41,534 bases of DNA. Source: a candidate division WWE3 bacterium CG_4_9_14_0_2_um_filter_35_11 (GTDB lineage: Bacteria > Patescibacteriota > WWE3 > 2-01-FULL-39-13). The notes under the pieces were generated by a model that worked only from the letters and a program-made list of their open reading frames with translations, was not told where the DNA came from and searched no databases. Of the stretch, positions 33,273 through 41,534 are shown piece by piece. The stretch covers positions 1 through 41,534 of the forward strand of contig PFSJ01000006.1 in assembly GCA_002789015.1 (NCBI GenBank), given 5' to 3'. Both the position numbers and the translations under genes were made by a program. Positions within the stretch are counted from its first letter, which is position 1. Each line of letters begins with the position of its first letter.

Positions 33273-34679
33273 ATGTGTATGCGAAGTGTAGCATCTGTGA
33301 TGTTGGTTGTTCTTGCAGCTTTTCTTCTAGGAACTTTTGATGTTTTTGCAGAGTCAGAAATTCCTTTAGGTGCAACAGTTGTTGATTTCGAAGGGACGTA
33401 TCAAAATGCCAAAGGGATCCTATCGTTCCCAGACGGTGTCGATTTTTTTGATGCGTGGGTGGAAACCGAAGACGTTGTTTTAGAGAATGGATTTTATGCA
33501 AAATCTGGTGATCATCTACTTATGGGGTCGGGAAGATATGGTATCTATGCATATTTCAATCCTGATCTTACGGGAGATGTTTCATCAGCCGGCGGTTTTT
33601 TCTCTGGCGTCGGTGGTGTTCTTACCGCATATGATGAAAACGGAAACGTTTTGAGTGAGTCAAAAACAGCTTGTTGTGATTTTGTTTTGAATCAGAAGCT
33701 GTATGTTGAATCAACCTCGGTTCCGATTTATCTGGTTTTGTTTTCTAGAGAGATCCGTTATTCGAGGCTGTCGATTGACGATTTCTTTTTTGTATCTGAA
33801 AAAGAAGTCTGTAAGCTCGACGTTCCTTTGTATTTGCAAACTGACCCTATTTGGAAGAATGAAAAATATGGCCAAGTTTGGTGGAGTGAAAGAAGTAAGT
33901 ATCGAACAATTGAATATGAAGGTTGTGCTGTTTCGTCAGCCTCTATGGTTCTTTCATATTATGGAGGGAATCAAAACGGTTTTGGCGTAAATCCATCGAG
34001 GCTTAATTCGTGGCTAAGAAGTCAACCTGCTGGCTATGTCGGTGGAAGCGTTAATTGGTTTTCGGTTGCCAGATATGCAAGGGAAGTAATGGGCCTTGAA
34101 CTTTGGTACCGTGGACGTGATAGAAATGATGGAAACCTTCTGTCTGCCAGGCTTTGCTCTGGTGAGCCAATAATACTCGAATTAGTTGGGCATTTTGTTG
34201 TAGCAAAAGGAATCAAAGATGATTCTTGGTCAATTAATGATCCGCTAAACAAAAGCTCTACTTTGAGTGAGTATTATGGCAATTGGTACAAATCGACAAG
34301 AAGGTTTTCAGATCAGCAGAAAGATTCTCGTGGAAGGTTGCAATCTGGATATTTGATTATCAGTTCCGATGCGGAATTCGATTTTCATGTTGTTACTCCA
34401 GAAGACGAGGTTCTTTTTGCACCTGGTGGTGAATTTAGTGATATCGAAATAGATTCACCAATGTCGGGAAAGTATGCCATTGTTTCTGAACAATTTGGAA
34501 TAGATCCGAATGCAAAGATATATATTGCTTCTGGAAATATTTCAGGTCAAGAATCAATGCATACTTTAAGCGCAAAGTCTTACACAGAATTTTATTTTGA
34601 CAGTGCGTCTGATGATTCTGTGAAGATTATTGATTTGGTTTCACGTAATTTGTTTTTGCCTGTAGTAACTAGTAATTAG
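33273..34679 (+). CDS. Secreted C39-like (papain-like) peptidase domain protein
   Basis: A 468-residue secreted protein with signal peptide MLVVLAAFLLGTFDVFAES. An N-terminal beta domain (residues ~25-180) precedes a peptidase C39-like domain: DVPLYLQTDPIWKNEKYG, YEGCAVSSASMVLSYYGG (catalytic Cys), VGGSVNWFSVARYAR, GEPIILELVGHFVVAKGIK (His) and SWSINDPLN (Asp). The third part (residues ~370-468) is beta-rich and ends without anchor. The C39_2 fold can cut peptides or just bind them; the triad here appears complete. The coding sequence is somewhat richer in G+C than its neighbours. It is followed by a strong GC-rich hairpin. Confidence 0.88.
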   Translation: MCMRSVASVMLVVLAAFLLGTFDVFAESEIPLGATVVDFEGTYQNAKGILSFPDGVDFFDAWVETEDVVLENGFYAKSGDHLLMGSGRYGIYAYFNPDLTGDVSSAGGFFSGVGGVLTAYDENGNVLSESKTACCDFVLNQKLYVESTSVPIYLVLFSREIRYSRLSIDDFFFVSEKEVCKLDVPLYLQTDPIWKNEKYGQVWWSERSKYRTIEYEGCAVSSASMVLSYYGGNQNGFGVNPSRLNSWLRSQPAGYVGGSVNWFSVARYAREVMGLELWYRGRDRNDGNLLSARLCSGEPIILELVGHFVVAKGIKDDSWSINDPLNKSSTLSEYYGNWYKSTRRFSDQQKDSRGRLQSGYLIISSDAEFDFHVVTPEDEVLFAPGGEFSDIEIDSPMSGKYAIVSEQFGIDPNAKIYIASGNISGQESMHTLSAKSYTEFYFDSASDDSVKIIDLVSRNLFLPVVTSN

Positions 34680-36152: not shown

Positions 36153-36626
36153 ATGAAAAATGAAAATAATGAAGTCTTCTTAACAAAAGAAGGTTTGAAA
36201 GATTTAAAAGACGAACTAAGTGGTCTAGTAAATGTCCAAAGGATCAAGATATTAGAAGATCTTAAAGCCGCAAGGGCTCTTGGTGACCTTAGCGAAAACG
36301 GTATGTACTCTGCTGCAAAAGATAAGCAGTCATTTTTAGAAGGTAGAATACGAGAACTCGAATCAATATTAAAAAATGCAGTAGTTGTAGAAAAAAATAT
36401 TGGTAAAAATGCAACAATCGATTTAGGCTCGCATGTAACATTAGAGACACAAAAAATAACGGTTAAATATTCAATCGTTGGCGTTGAAGAGGTTAATTTT
36501 AGTGAAAATAAGATTTCACATGAATCCCCACTTGGAAAAGCATTGATTGGAAAGTCTGCAGGGGATATTATAGAAATCGAAGCTCCAATGGGTGCTGTTA
36601 AATATAAAGTATTGGAAGTAAAGTAA
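36153..36626 (+). CDS. greA: Transcription elongation factor GreA, first copy
   Basis: A 157-residue transcript-cleavage factor that enters the RNA polymerase channel to rescue backtracked complexes. The N-terminal coiled coil carries its acidic tip at LGDLSENGMYSAAKDKQSF (D and E at the D-x-x-E positions kept). The C-terminal FKBP-like domain shows VKYSIVGVEEV and ISHESPLGKALIGKSAGD. It is full length. The second greA starts seven bases after its stop, and the pair is followed by two M49-like genes in the same direction, suggesting a single operon. Confidence 0.93.
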   Translation: MKNENNEVFLTKEGLKDLKDELSGLVNVQRIKILEDLKAARALGDLSENGMYSAAKDKQSFLEGRIRELESILKNAVVVEKNIGKNATIDLGSHVTLETQKITVKYSIVGVEEVNFSENKISHESPLGKALIGKSAGDIIEIEAPMGAVKYKVLEVK

Positions 36627-36632
36627 AGCACA

Positions 36633-37097
36633 ATGGTCGAAAAAATTTACCTGACCGAACTAGGACAAAAAAAATTAAAAGAAGAGCTACATAACCTTAG
36701 GGAAGTAGCCAGAGCAGAAATAGCAACAAAAATAAAAGACGCGAGAGACCTAGGAGATGTTTTAGAAAATACAGTATATGACTCTACTTTAGATGAACAA
36801 GCTTACATCGAAGGTCGAATTAGTGAAATAGAATCCACATTAGCAAATTCAGACATAATTTCAGATAAGAATATTTCAGTTGATATAGTAGGGGTTGGAA
36901 GCGTTGTCGTTGTCGAATCAGATGGAAATATCGATGAATTTGCGATTGTTGGAAGCGCCGAAGCTGATCCAATGAAAAGACATATTTCAAACGAATCGCC
37001 AGTAGGAAAGGCATTAATTGGGGCAAGGAAAAATCAACTTGTCGAAGTTAAAACACCAATCTTTACTGTTATTTATAAAGTAATTGATATAAAATAA
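36633..37097 (+). CDS. GreA/GreB-family factor, second copy in tandem
   Basis: A 154-residue paralog of the previous gene. The tip here is LGDVLENTVYDSTLDEQAYI: the two acidic residues stay (D and E) but the usual SEN is LEN. The C-terminal domain contains EFAIVGSAEAD and ISNESPVGKALIGARKNQ. Identity to the first copy is limited, so this is an old duplication or a separate acquisition. It may serve a different polymerase state or regulate the first one; nothing more can be said. It precedes the M49-like gene by four bases, so translation is likely coupled. Confidence 0.9.
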   Translation: MVEKIYLTELGQKKLKEELHNLREVARAEIATKIKDARDLGDVLENTVYDSTLDEQAYIEGRISEIESTLANSDIISDKNISVDIVGVGSVVVVESDGNIDEFAIVGSAEADPMKRHISNESPVGKALIGARKNQLVEVKTPIFTVIYKVIDIK

Positions 37098-37101
37098 GTT
37101 T

Positions 37102-38484
37102 ATGAATTATTACAAAGAGTACACCGACGTTGATCTATCAACACTTTTAGATTGGGAAAAAGATGTTATTGAAAAGCTAAAAGAAGTTGTCAAAATTTGC
37201 GGGCAAATATACGCAAAGCAAAAAAATTCAGAATGTATAGGCGGAAACTTTTATCCATGCAACATACAAAAAGAACAAATCGAACTGGCCTCAAAATCTG
37301 ATCCCGAAATACTTTCTTCTTATACTATGGTTGAAATTGGTGATAACGGAGAGCTTGTAGCGGTTAGATATTCTGTAAAATTCAAAAAAGAAATTTCCAG
37401 AATGTGCCAAATAATTGAAGATGTTGCAAAAATCTACGAGTCAAACGACTTTGACCTTTATTCAGTTTACTTAAAGCAGATGTCTTTGGATTTAAAAAAT
37501 GATAATTATGAGGAAAGCGAAAAGTTGTGGCTGAAAATTGATTGGAAAGTCAAAATTGATATCAAATTTGGGCCGATAGAAACATACCAAGACAAACTAT
37601 TTGGAATAAAGAGAGCATTCCAAGCAAATTTAAGAATTACAGACGATGTCGACTCAAACAATATCGGCGAATACATTGACTTGGCGTATGCCTTAGCGGC
37701 TTACTCAAGGCAGAATAAGGCCGAGTCGGCGTCATCCCAGCGAAAAGTAATTGTAAGAGTTGATAGGGTTGTTGCCATGTCTGGTTGGCACGCGGACCTA
37801 ACACCAAGGAGCAGTAATTATCCAGCAGATATTTCACAAATTGCTCTAGGTAGCAAAATATTAATTTACACAAATAATATTTTATTAATACAAGAGGCGA
37901 TTTCTAGAATAATTTCGGACCTGTTTGTGTTAACTTCTAATGATTTGGCAAATAACTATGATCTTTCTGCAGTTAGGATATGTACGTTACACGAAATTGC
38001 CGAAACTGTATCAAAACAGGAACATCCTAAAGACTATGGTAATTTTGGCCAAATCGAAGATTCCTTCACCGAGTTAAATGCTGATATGGCAGGTCTTAAG
38101 ATAGCTTCCTACCAGGTTTTGAAGGGTGTTTTTTCTGCGGGTGATTATAAACTTTTAATTATAGAATTTCTTGCAGATGCTTTAAGAGGATGGATTTACG
38201 GCAAAGCAAATGCAGGTGGGTTAAGAGTATTCAGTGACACTTATAAAGTAATATTAAATTACTTACTACAAGAAAGTGCATTAAAAATTAATAGCGATAG
38301 TAAGCTTGAGGTTGATTTAAGTGGCGTTTATACGTACGTAGATATCCTAAATAAAAATTTACATACTTATTTAGTTGCACAAGACAAAGAGTCTGTTGAG
38401 AAATTATTTTCTAAATATTCATCTGAAGATATATTAAGCAAATTGGAAAAACGATTAGAAGACATAGTTTTTAGAAAGGAGTAA
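37102..38484 (+). CDS. M49-like (dipeptidyl-peptidase III-like) protein with HEIAE motif
   Basis: A 460-residue protein with the layout of bacterial M49 family members. FGPIETYQDKLFGIKRAFQA is the clearest match to the family's GPxExYxDxLfGxKaxFea block. The zinc motif is TLHEIAETV (H297, E298, E301), where the second His of the family motif is Glu, and the downstream ELNADMAG (E324) provides the third-ligand position. With one His missing, hydrolase activity is uncertain. No signal peptide. It lies directly downstream of the two greA genes and is followed after 55 bases by a similar protein. The M49 assignment is by pattern; I would not assign a substrate. Confidence 0.65.
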   Translation: MNYYKEYTDVDLSTLLDWEKDVIEKLKEVVKICGQIYAKQKNSECIGGNFYPCNIQKEQIELASKSDPEILSSYTMVEIGDNGELVAVRYSVKFKKEISRMCQIIEDVAKIYESNDFDLYSVYLKQMSLDLKNDNYEESEKLWLKIDWKVKIDIKFGPIETYQDKLFGIKRAFQANLRITDDVDSNNIGEYIDLAYALAAYSRQNKAESASSQRKVIVRVDRVVAMSGWHADLTPRSSNYPADISQIALGSKILIYTNNILLIQEAISRIISDLFVLTSNDLANNYDLSAVRICTLHEIAETVSKQEHPKDYGNFGQIEDSFTELNADMAGLKIASYQVLKGVFSAGDYKLLIIEFLADALRGWIYGKANAGGLRVFSDTYKVILNYLLQESALKINSDSKLEVDLSGVYTYVDILNKNLHTYLVAQDKESVEKLFSKYSSEDILSKLEKRLEDIVFRKE

Positions 38485-38539
38485 AATGTACCAACAACCT
38501 GACAGAGGATAATTTTATTTAACTGCTTCCTAAACGGAA

Positions 38540-39889
38540 ATGTCGACACACTTGGGTATAAAATCTTTAAGCATTTTTAGGAATGAAGTTGACTTAGCTG
38601 AAGTCGGCGTTTATGTTCCTGGTGTTGATGAAGTCGATCTGTCGTCTGAAGATGAGAGTTCTCTTGAATTTATTGTGGATTTGCTTCCTTATATTTCTGA
38701 TCTTCAAATTCTTAGCAACGCGAGTGAATTAGCAGGTTTGTCACATGGTGAATTTATTCGAGGGGAATATGTGGCACTTATTATAGATAGGGTTCGTGAC
38801 TGTCTACTTACGTTGAGCGAGTTATCGGAGAATATCTATTTAAAGGCTTATTATTTGGCGCTTTCTGGGGATTTCGGCTTTGTAATAAAGCCTAATTCGC
38901 TTAGTGAAATTGCGTATGGCGAACTTATTGCAAATTCAACTCCTGAACAGATGGTTATTAGGTTAGGTTTTCTCCATGATTATAATTATGAAAATAAGCG
39001 AACTGACAAAGATGGAAGCCGTCGTGATTTGGTATTCAATATTTGTAAAGTAGTTTCTTACAAGGATATCCCAGAAGGTTTTGTTCAGTCTCTTAAAGAA
39101 TTTTTTGACACACAAGAAAATCATCAAGTTACAATTGTTGAAGAAAAAGTTGTGCTTTTTGGTGCGTCTCAAGCTTCAAGAGTCGTATCAGACAATGTAG
39201 TCCCTACTGGTAGTAGTCATATTATGGATAGCGAGGGAAATGGGTATCGCATTGTAATAAGAAGGTACGTTAATACTGGGAATGAGAAAGTTAGATTGAT
39301 GTCTATGACAGCAAAAAGTATATTTAGTAGTGAATTTTTTGGATCAATCGGAATTGATTTATCTGATGAAAGATCACAAGAAACTTTACTACAGATGCTC
39401 TCTTATGGTCAGTATATTGATCTAATCTCCCATGAGATCGCTGAGGGGATGGGTACACGTGAGCTAACAGGTACTAATAGAGCGATTCAAGAGTGTTTAT
39501 TTACAGCTGTTGGGTTTTCGACTTTAGTGTCTTTGGTAGGCAGAGCTAGTGGTATTTCCAATGAAAATCTAATAAATACAAGAATATACACTTTGTCAGA
39601 AATTTTTACTATGCTTGCAGGTGATTACACAGGTAATTATATACCTGGCTATGCATTAATGTATAAAAGGTTAGTAAAGGATAATGCTTTGACGTTTGAC
39701 GAGGCTGGTTTTGTTAGCCATGTTGATTGGGAAATTTTTGATAGTGTTATGGGTAATATCGCAGGCGAAATGTATTTAGCTTTAAAGGTGGGCGACGATT
39801 CAAATGGGCTCATTGATCATTTGCCAGAGGAAGTCAGGAGTGACAAATTTATTGTAGGTTTGAGTAAAAGATTCAAAGAGGCTTCATAA
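38540..39889 (+). CDS. Second HEIAE-motif protein, possible diverged M49-like paralog
   Basis: A 449-residue protein with no strong overall similarity I can name, but with the same motif at almost the same place: ISHEIAEGMG (H298-E302). The next conserved acidic position, IQECLFTAVGF (E318), aligns with the neighbour's ELNADMAG but has lost its aspartate. The first 120 residues are helix-rich; no signal peptide or membrane segment. The size, place of HEIAE and adjacency to the preceding gene argue for an old tandem duplication with heavy divergence. Function unknown. Confidence 0.55.
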   Translation: MSTHLGIKSLSIFRNEVDLAEVGVYVPGVDEVDLSSEDESSLEFIVDLLPYISDLQILSNASELAGLSHGEFIRGEYVALIIDRVRDCLLTLSELSENIYLKAYYLALSGDFGFVIKPNSLSEIAYGELIANSTPEQMVIRLGFLHDYNYENKRTDKDGSRRDLVFNICKVVSYKDIPEGFVQSLKEFFDTQENHQVTIVEEKVVLFGASQASRVVSDNVVPTGSSHIMDSEGNGYRIVIRRYVNTGNEKVRLMSMTAKSIFSSEFFGSIGIDLSDERSQETLLQMLSYGQYIDLISHEIAEGMGTRELTGTNRAIQECLFTAVGFSTLVSLVGRASGISNENLINTRIYTLSEIFTMLAGDYTGNYIPGYALMYKRLVKDNALTFDEAGFVSHVDWEIFDSVMGNIAGEMYLALKVGDDSNGLIDHLPEEVRSDKFIVGLSKRFKEAS

Positions 39890-39937: not shown

Positions 39938-41534
39938 ATGCAAGATGCAACAACCCAACTTCCAATTGAACAGTTAAGGCAGATTCGAATTGACAAGTTA
40001 AGTAAGCTTCGCAAACTTGGTGTTGATCCTTTTCCTGCAAAATCAAATAGAACTAATGTTATTTCAGATGTTATAAATGATTACGAGAAATTCGAAGGCA
40101 AGGAAGTTACACTCGCTGGTCGTGTTGTAAGTAAAAGGGATCATGGCAAGTTAATTTTTATTGATATTAAAGATCAAAGTGGAAAGGTACAAATTTACTT
40201 AAAAGAAAACGATTTGAACATTAGACCAATTAGAGAAAATAGTGAGTTGTCTTTTTCTGAGGTTATTGAGCTTATTGATGTTTCGGATTTTGTTGAGGTT
40301 CGCGGTGCCGTTACAAAAACACAAAGAGGAGAAACCTCTATTATTCCAAGCCACTTTCGTATATTAACAAAGGCAATAAGGGCAATCCCAGAAGAATTAA
40401 AAGACAAAGAACTTAGATATAGAAAAAGATATTTAGATACGAATATTCACCAAGATGTTTTCGACAGATTTATACGTAGGTCAAAATTCTGGGAAGCTCA
40501 TCGAGATTTTTTCAAACAAAATGGTTTTATTGAAATGAATATTCCGGTTTTGGAAAGTGTAATTGGTGGTGGAGATGCAACGCCTTTTGTAACACATATG
40601 AATGCAATTGACGAAGATTTTTATTTAAGAATTTCACAGGAGCTTCCTTTAAAAAGATTAATTGGTGCAGGTTATGAAAAAGTTTTTGAAATTGGTCCAC
40701 GTTTTAGAAATGAAGGATTAAGCGACGAACATCTTCCAGAACATATGGCAATGGAATTTTACCTAGCATATGCAGATTGGAAAGATGGTATGAAATTTAT
40801 ACAAGACCTAGTGAATTTTGTAATTGGAAAAGTTTACCTAGGCAAGACAAGCTTTGATATTCGTGGATTTAAAGATATTAAATTTGGTAATGAATGGGAA
40901 ATAATAGATTTCAAACAAATATTTAAAGATAAATATGGAATTGAAGATGTCTATACGATCACTCAAAAAGAAGTTGAGAAAAAAGTCAAAGAGCATATAA
41001 AAGACGTAGATTTTCAGATCAATATTCCACGTGGGGTAGATAATCTTTGGAAGCTGATACGAAAAGAAGTTAAAGGTCCTGCATTTTTAATAAATCATCC
41101 TAAATACCTATCACCACTTCAAAAGCCTGACAAAGAAAATCCTTTAATGGTTAATAGATTCCAGCCTATTATTGCAGGTAGTGAACTTGGAAATGGTTGG
41201 AGCGAAATAACTGATGCACTAGATCAATTTGAGAGGTTTTCCGAGCAAGAAAAATTGAGAACTTCTGGTGATAAAGAGGCTCAAATGATGGATATTGATT
41301 ATGTTGAAATGCTTGAATATGGCATGCCCCCAACTTTTGGTTGGGGACACAGCGAAAGATTATTTTGGTTTTTAGAAGATGTAAGTGCAAGAGAAGGCGT
41401 TATATTTCCTGCGATGAAACATGAAATATCAGACGAGACAAAAAAGATTTATGGAATTAAAGATGAGGAGAAGGTTGTGTCCAAAGAGAAAAGCTCAACG
41501 GCATTAAAATCGGAGTATTTAATAGATAAAGAGG
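39938..41534 (+). CDS. lysS: Lysyl-tRNA synthetase, class II, partial at right edge
   Basis: 532 codons are visible and the frame runs off the window. The OB-fold (VTLAGRVVSKRDHGKLIFID), motif 1 region (RYLDTNIHQDVFDRFIRRS), motif 2 (FEIGPRFRNEGLSDEHLPEH) and motif 3 (TFGWGHSERLFWFL) identify class II LysRS. The family normally ends just after the motif-3 helix near LFPxMRP; here GVIFPAMKHE is followed by at least 35 more residues (KKIYGIKDEEKVVSKEK), an additional C-terminal part cut by the window edge. TAAAAT at 39923-39928 may be the -10 box; there is no ribosome site. Confidence 0.95.
   Translation, partial: MQDATTQLPIEQLRQIRIDKLSKLRKLGVDPFPAKSNRTNVISDVINDYEKFEGKEVTLAGRVVSKRDHGKLIFIDIKDQSGKVQIYLKENDLNIRPIRENSELSFSEVIELIDVSDFVEVRGAVTKTQRGETSIIPSHFRILTKAIRAIPEELKDKELRYRKRYLDTNIHQDVFDRFIRRSKFWEAHRDFFKQNGFIEMNIPVLESVIGGGDATPFVTHMNAIDEDFYLRISQELPLKRLIGAGYEKVFEIGPRFRNEGLSDEHLPEHMAMEFYLAYADWKDGMKFIQDLVNFVIGKVYLGKTSFDIRGFKDIKFGNEWEIIDFKQIFKDKYGIEDVYTITQKEVEKKVKEHIKDVDFQINIPRGVDNLWKLIRKEVKGPAFLINHPKYLSPLQKPDKENPLMVNRFQPIIAGSELGNGWSEITDALDQFERFSEQEKLRTSGDKEAQMMDIDYVEMLEYGMPPTFGWGHSERLFWFLEDVSAREGVIFPAMKHEISDETKKIYGIKDEEKVVSKEKSSTALKSEYLIDKE

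Follow-up and report, generated by a model that had tools for sequence, protein, structure and literature searches.

The window, i.e. the whole stretch of 41,534 nucleotides analysed here, is one contig of a 0.75 Mb genome. Five of its genes form a run on one strand in the order greA-greA-P1-P2-lysS, separated by gaps of 6, 4, 55 and 48 bp, with P1 and P2 designating the ORFs at 37102-38484 and 38540-39889, respectively. The features of this cassette are:

36153..36626, + strand: greA copy 1, canonical coiled-coil tip GDLSEN (PF03449, 4.4e-25; PF01272, 6.2e-21; tip alignment)
36633..37097, + strand: greA copy 2, directly 5' of P1, tip GDVLEN (PF03449, 1.6e-19; PF01272, 3.7e-18; tip alignment)
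37102..38484, + strand: P1, 460 aa, M49 (DPP III)-like, first copy in the greA-linked family (phmmer and profile vs 6eom, Foldseek)
37570..37620, + strand: M49 block GPIETYQDKLFGIKRAF, P1 residues 157-173 (alignment to 6eom; residue roles from PMC5805324)
37990..38004, + strand: HEIAE, P1 residues 297-301 (alignment to HEISH of 6eom; HExxE in 10/10 clade members)
38071..38085, + strand: ELNAD, P1 residues 324-328, E324 at the third zinc ligand position (alignment to 6eom)
38540..39889, + strand: P2, 449 aa, slot 2 (P1 on its 5' and lysS on its 3' side), probably a highly divergent M49-like protein (HHalign vs family profile)
39431..39445, + strand: HEIAE, P2 residues 298-302, in register with the P1 motif (profile alignment)
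39938..41534, + strand: lysS (lysyl-tRNA synthetase), truncated at the end of the contig, conserved 3' neighbour of the cassette (PF00152, 1.2e-57; position in other genomes)

The two ORFs, their lengths and the positions of HEIAE agree with the first-pass annotation; neither P1 nor P2 contains the zinc motif HEXXGH or HEXXH. The two greA copies are the only ones in this genome. The lysyl-tRNA synthetase of G002, a sister genome of the same genus, carries a C-terminal B3/4 domain (L002:7931-10177; PF03483, 5.9e-24), and the lysS of the window leaves the contig in the region matching this domain, which is otherwise typical of PheRS beta. Further upstream, just 5' of tgt, the product of the gene at 33273-34679 appears to have a signal sequence at its N-terminus and contains a C39-like peptidase domain (PF13529, 5.3e-08); the protein is conserved in the sister genome (67 % identity).

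Among structures of dipeptidyl peptidase III, P1 matched 6eom (5.6e-19) and 5zum (7.3e-18) in phmmer searches, and a four-sequence profile of the P1 family reached 6eom at E=1.1e-49 over profile positions 46-449 and 5zum at 3.8e-38. The homology of P1 extends over both domains of the M49 protein and takes in the GPxExYxD block. P1 itself yielded no Pfam match even at E=10 and no NCBIfam match, and it escapes automatic annotation; its orthologue in genome G016 lies above the Pfam cut-off for M49. An AlphaFold model of P1 from a two-row alignment (pLDDT 49) was too poor to judge the site; the top three Foldseek hits of this poor model were nevertheless short DPP III chains from bacteria (E=6e-8 to 1.7e-6), a ranking owed in part to sequence. 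Judged from the alignments, P1 is clearly homologous to the bacterial dipeptidyl peptidases III.

The zinc ligands of the dipeptidyl peptidase III of Caldithrix abyssi (CaDPP III, 6eom) are H379 and H383 of the HEISH motif plus E412 (PMC5805324). Since P1 residues H297, E301 and E324 align with these three, one histidine has become glutamate, while the general base E298 and the third ligand remain. The second motif (EEXR/KAE/D) reads TELNAD in P1, with the ligand Glu, the Ala and the Asp kept and the first Glu lost; the downstream E-x-x-A-D (E324-L-N-A327-D328) had been recognized correctly, as had the M49 block, in which E160 and Y162 are the equivalents of Glu240 and Tyr242 of CaDPP III. Of the five substrate or catalytic positions of human DPP III (Glu316, Tyr318, Asn391, Asn394 and His568), P1 keeps three (E160, Y162 and N239); the alignment puts A242 and F377 at the remaining positions.

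Profile searches revealed P1-like proteins of about 450 residues to be scattered among Patescibacteria: positive genomes numbered 4 of 45 in the class, 17 of 380 in a sample drawn from the phylum as a whole (including a few longer proteins with only weak matches), 31 of 280 in another class and 8 of 42 in a further order. A neighbouring greA, already proposed from the window, proved real and conserved elsewhere: in 29 of the 30 P1-family loci with enough flank, greA is the adjacent upstream gene in the same orientation, no more than 114 bp away, these loci having been picked by the M49-like profile and not by greA. At least six families have retained the ORF and its location after greA. On the 3' side, lysS usually follows, directly or after one slot gene; in genomes of the f29 type, trmD precedes instead. 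Scans with P2 and two family alignments retrieved no relatives from viral contigs, and a literature search on HEXXE metallopeptidases or greA-linked DPP III found no relevant paper.

The search for further members also yielded ten proteins with HExxE. Among first copies, this motif occurs in the WWE3 families f1, f2 and f10 and also in f29, f158 and f160; HExxH is found in f65, f99 and relatives, and eroded motifs of the YExxK, TxxxQ and other types (YELGK, YELGR, TAIAQ, TSVAR, TGIVQ, HEISR and others) in further first copies. In a maximum-likelihood tree calculated with the motif columns removed, a single branch (support 90/94) separates the ten HExxE proteins from the others, and 92 % of bootstrap trees need a single change to HExxE. 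At a mean pairwise identity of 34 %, the clade has 16 invariant columns out of 460, among them all of H297, E298, E301 and E324, the last of which is invariant in all 42 family members. Since the HExxE proteins share one branch and their site columns are invariant, tree and alignment together show a single origin of HExxE in the P1 lineage, maintained under selective constraint rather than decaying by drift; the suggestion that the change from His to Glu is old and maintained is thereby borne out. Position 178 is Arg in 10/10 HExxE members and Gly in 16/16 HExxH first copies; R178 could possibly form a compensating contact or pair with E301, a correlation confounded by shared descent.

Seven genomes of the other class harbour a second M49-like gene behind the first; in six of them the second copy is of the HExxH type, and in six the first copy is eroded. 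In the sister G002, the first copy reads HEVAE and the slot-2 protein HEESH. Other proteins also occupy this slot. A HisG-like protein (ATP phosphoribosyltransferase; PF01634, 1.9e-16) is encoded between an eroded M49-like gene and lysS at L072:4922-5689, and an ORF of equal length occupies the same slot at L075:6070-6837. Slot-2 proteins of 460-500 residues with HEIAGH, HEPVH or similar motifs (L069:4580-6076, L070:6555-7943) were considered as M49 copies and rejected, as they have neither a profile match nor a Pfam family; possibly they represent another metalloprotease-like family.

GreA copy 2 of the window possesses both the GreA_GreB_N and the GreA_GreB domain, and its tip GDVLEN keeps both acidic residues with the third and fourth letters changed. 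The tip was deviant in all seven HExxE-linked GreA proteins examined (GDVLEN, GNLQEN, PDPTEN and acidic replacements), the two tip acids being lost or changed in several others of these genes, and genomes with a deviant linked GreA also encode another GreA with the usual tip. The linked GreA of HExxH and eroded lineages, by comparison, has the canonical tip in 13/13 cases. Strongly altered tips occur in the HExxE-linked genes at L068:4302-4766, L067:6081-6542 and L066:6917-7369 (SDEDD, VEELDD and NIEDD, respectively). Gfh1 and Rv3788 are Gre-like factors that inhibit RNA polymerase and do not cleave RNA (PMC4598747); by analogy with them, a non-cleaving role of the linked GreA is possible.

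Between the window and G002, tgt, both greA copies and lysS are 80-90 % identical, vs 49 % for P1 and about 27 % for slot 2, the latter value not exceeding that of shuffled sequences. Within P1, identity to the sister orthologue is 80-90 % over residues 121-180, where the M49 block lies, and mostly 13-57 % in the catalytic half.

Pairwise comparison revealed no similarity between P1 and P2 (best BLASTP E=0.30; global score z=0.9 vs shuffles) or, above shuffled sequence, between P2 and the slot-2 protein of the sister genome, and P2 has no match in Pfam, NCBIfam or PDB. These results, together with the occupation of the slot by unrelated proteins such as the HisG-like one in other genomes, would fit a P2 that is unrelated to P1 and carries HEIAE by coincidence. 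This is nevertheless quite improbable: HHalign against the whole-family profile gave a probability of 61-87, depending on the alignment used, and a score of 41-49, far above that of more than 50 control proteins, shuffles and reversed P2 (at most about 26), and the value was still 66 with HEIAE masked. Moreover, HEIAE and E318 of P2 land on the corresponding P1 columns in the profile alignment, and the sister slot-2 protein is an M49 relative (probability 95). Against realigned second-copy profiles alone, the probability for P2 was 7-24 %. Codon composition of P2 is gene-like; its AlphaFold model (four rows including P1; pLDDT 37) was too poor to judge, the low quality of both models being due to the supply of only two to four rows. 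On this moderate evidence, P2 is very probably a strongly diverged M49-like protein. The reported replacement of the second zinc histidine by glutamate is thus firm for P1, where HEIAE aligns with HEISH of 6eom and is certainly more than chance; for P2, where only E318 (in IQECLFTAVG) is left of the downstream motif, it depends on the family profile, which places HEIAE on the P1 column and makes it probably more than chance. The identical motif in both genes and the weak match of P2 to the HExxE clade profile (probability 24) could suggest that HEIAE is older than the P1/P2 duplication, as originally proposed. This order of events is hardly likely, given that the slot-2 protein of the sister genome has HEESH, that HExxH is retained by 6/7 second copies in other genomes, and that G005 and G016, HExxE genomes with a single copy, lack another one between P1 and lysS; probably, HEIAE of P2 is a change independent of that in P1. 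Nor is a recent duplication of P1 visible, P2 being too diverged.

For P1, the conserved site would be compatible with a working metallopeptidase, in which a harder metal (Mn, Fe, Co, Mg or Ca) is coordinated by H297, E301 and E324 while E298 acts as general base and peptides are still trimmed. The four metal-site positions belong to the few invariant columns of the HExxE clade, and E160, Y162 and N239, equivalents of N-terminus-binding and catalytic residues, are kept in most members; furthermore, Co, Mn, Mg and Ca have an activating effect on the related CoDPP III (PMC9820243). An active enzyme of this kind is nonetheless somewhat unlikely, as P1 has Ala (A242) in place of Asn324 of CaDPP III, both asparagines are gone in the sister orthologue, R178 might pair with E301 (with the reservation on shared descent made above), and the site is abolished altogether in sister lineages. 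The loss of the motif in several lineages and the low identities of P1 and slot 2 to the sister, compared with those of the surrounding genes, could also reflect two decaying pseudo-peptidases under relaxed constraint. Such decay is improbable in view of the maintenance of the ORF and its place behind greA across families, the invariance of E301 and the other site residues, the high identity of P1 residues 121-180 and the gene-like codons of P2.

Our leading, still tentative, interpretation is that P1 represents a remodelled M49 protein, probably non-classical, that cooperates with the linked Gre factor, and P2 a fast-diverging second copy that gained HEIAE separately. P1 is a first-copy member of a patescibacterial family with M49 fold, encoded directly 3' of greA. 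As tree and conservation show, the zinc site of its lineage changed once from His-Glu-x-x-His...Glu to His-Glu-x-x-Glu...Glu and was then held by selection. P1 would no longer be a classical zinc dipeptidyl peptidase; its altered site may bind a harder metal or none, the cleft between its domains probably still accommodates a peptide or the end of a protein, and its likely place of action is RNA polymerase, where it would work together with the linked Gre factor or act on it. P2 lies in a slot of recurrent tandem copies and most likely reached HEIAE on its own. Several points weigh against this interpretation or limit it. Gene order alone is no proof of contact between P1 and GreA, as lysS and other genes lie in the same cassette; the invariant H297, E298, E301 and E324 would suit a catalytically active protein using a different metal just as well; GreA copy 2 of the window keeps both tip acids; and the support for P2 membership is moderate, with no more than 7-24 % reached by realigned second-copy profiles alone. 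The more specific proposal that a DPP III fold with a conserved, non-classical His-Glu-Glu site serves as dedicated Gre-factor partner in Patescibacteria, peptidase site and Gre tip having been remodelled together, is best regarded as doubtful.

Genomes of Patescibacteria are tiny, and a protein that is kept and repeatedly duplicated beside transcription and tRNA genes is therefore worth explaining. The invariant HExxE of single origin shows that an M49 fold can stay under selection without its normal metal site, suggesting reuse of a peptidase fold for a new job, and the tight link to greA provides a concrete candidate partner for P1.

The closest comparison for P1 is CaDPP III (PMC5805324), a short bacterial M49 protein with HEISH, whose M49 block, catalytic Glu and third ligand align with those of P1. 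P1 differs from it in the replacement of His383 by Glu, of the first Glu of EECKAD by Thr, of Asn324 by Ala and of the His of AHGAG (His568-type) by Phe, as well as in its greA neighbourhood. The second-best solved relative, CoDPP III of Corallococcus (5zum, HELMH; profile match 3.8e-38; PMC9820243), is a proven active enzyme, whereas P1 has Glu in place of the second zinc His. For the deviant-tip GreA paralogues, Gfh1 and Rv3788 (PMC4598747) offer a possible analogy and no more than that, GreA copy 2 of the window retaining both tip acids. Finally, human DPP3 binds KEAP1 (PMC10532290) and thus provides a precedent for an M49 fold as protein-binding partner, although it is catalytically competent and its partner is other than that proposed for P1.
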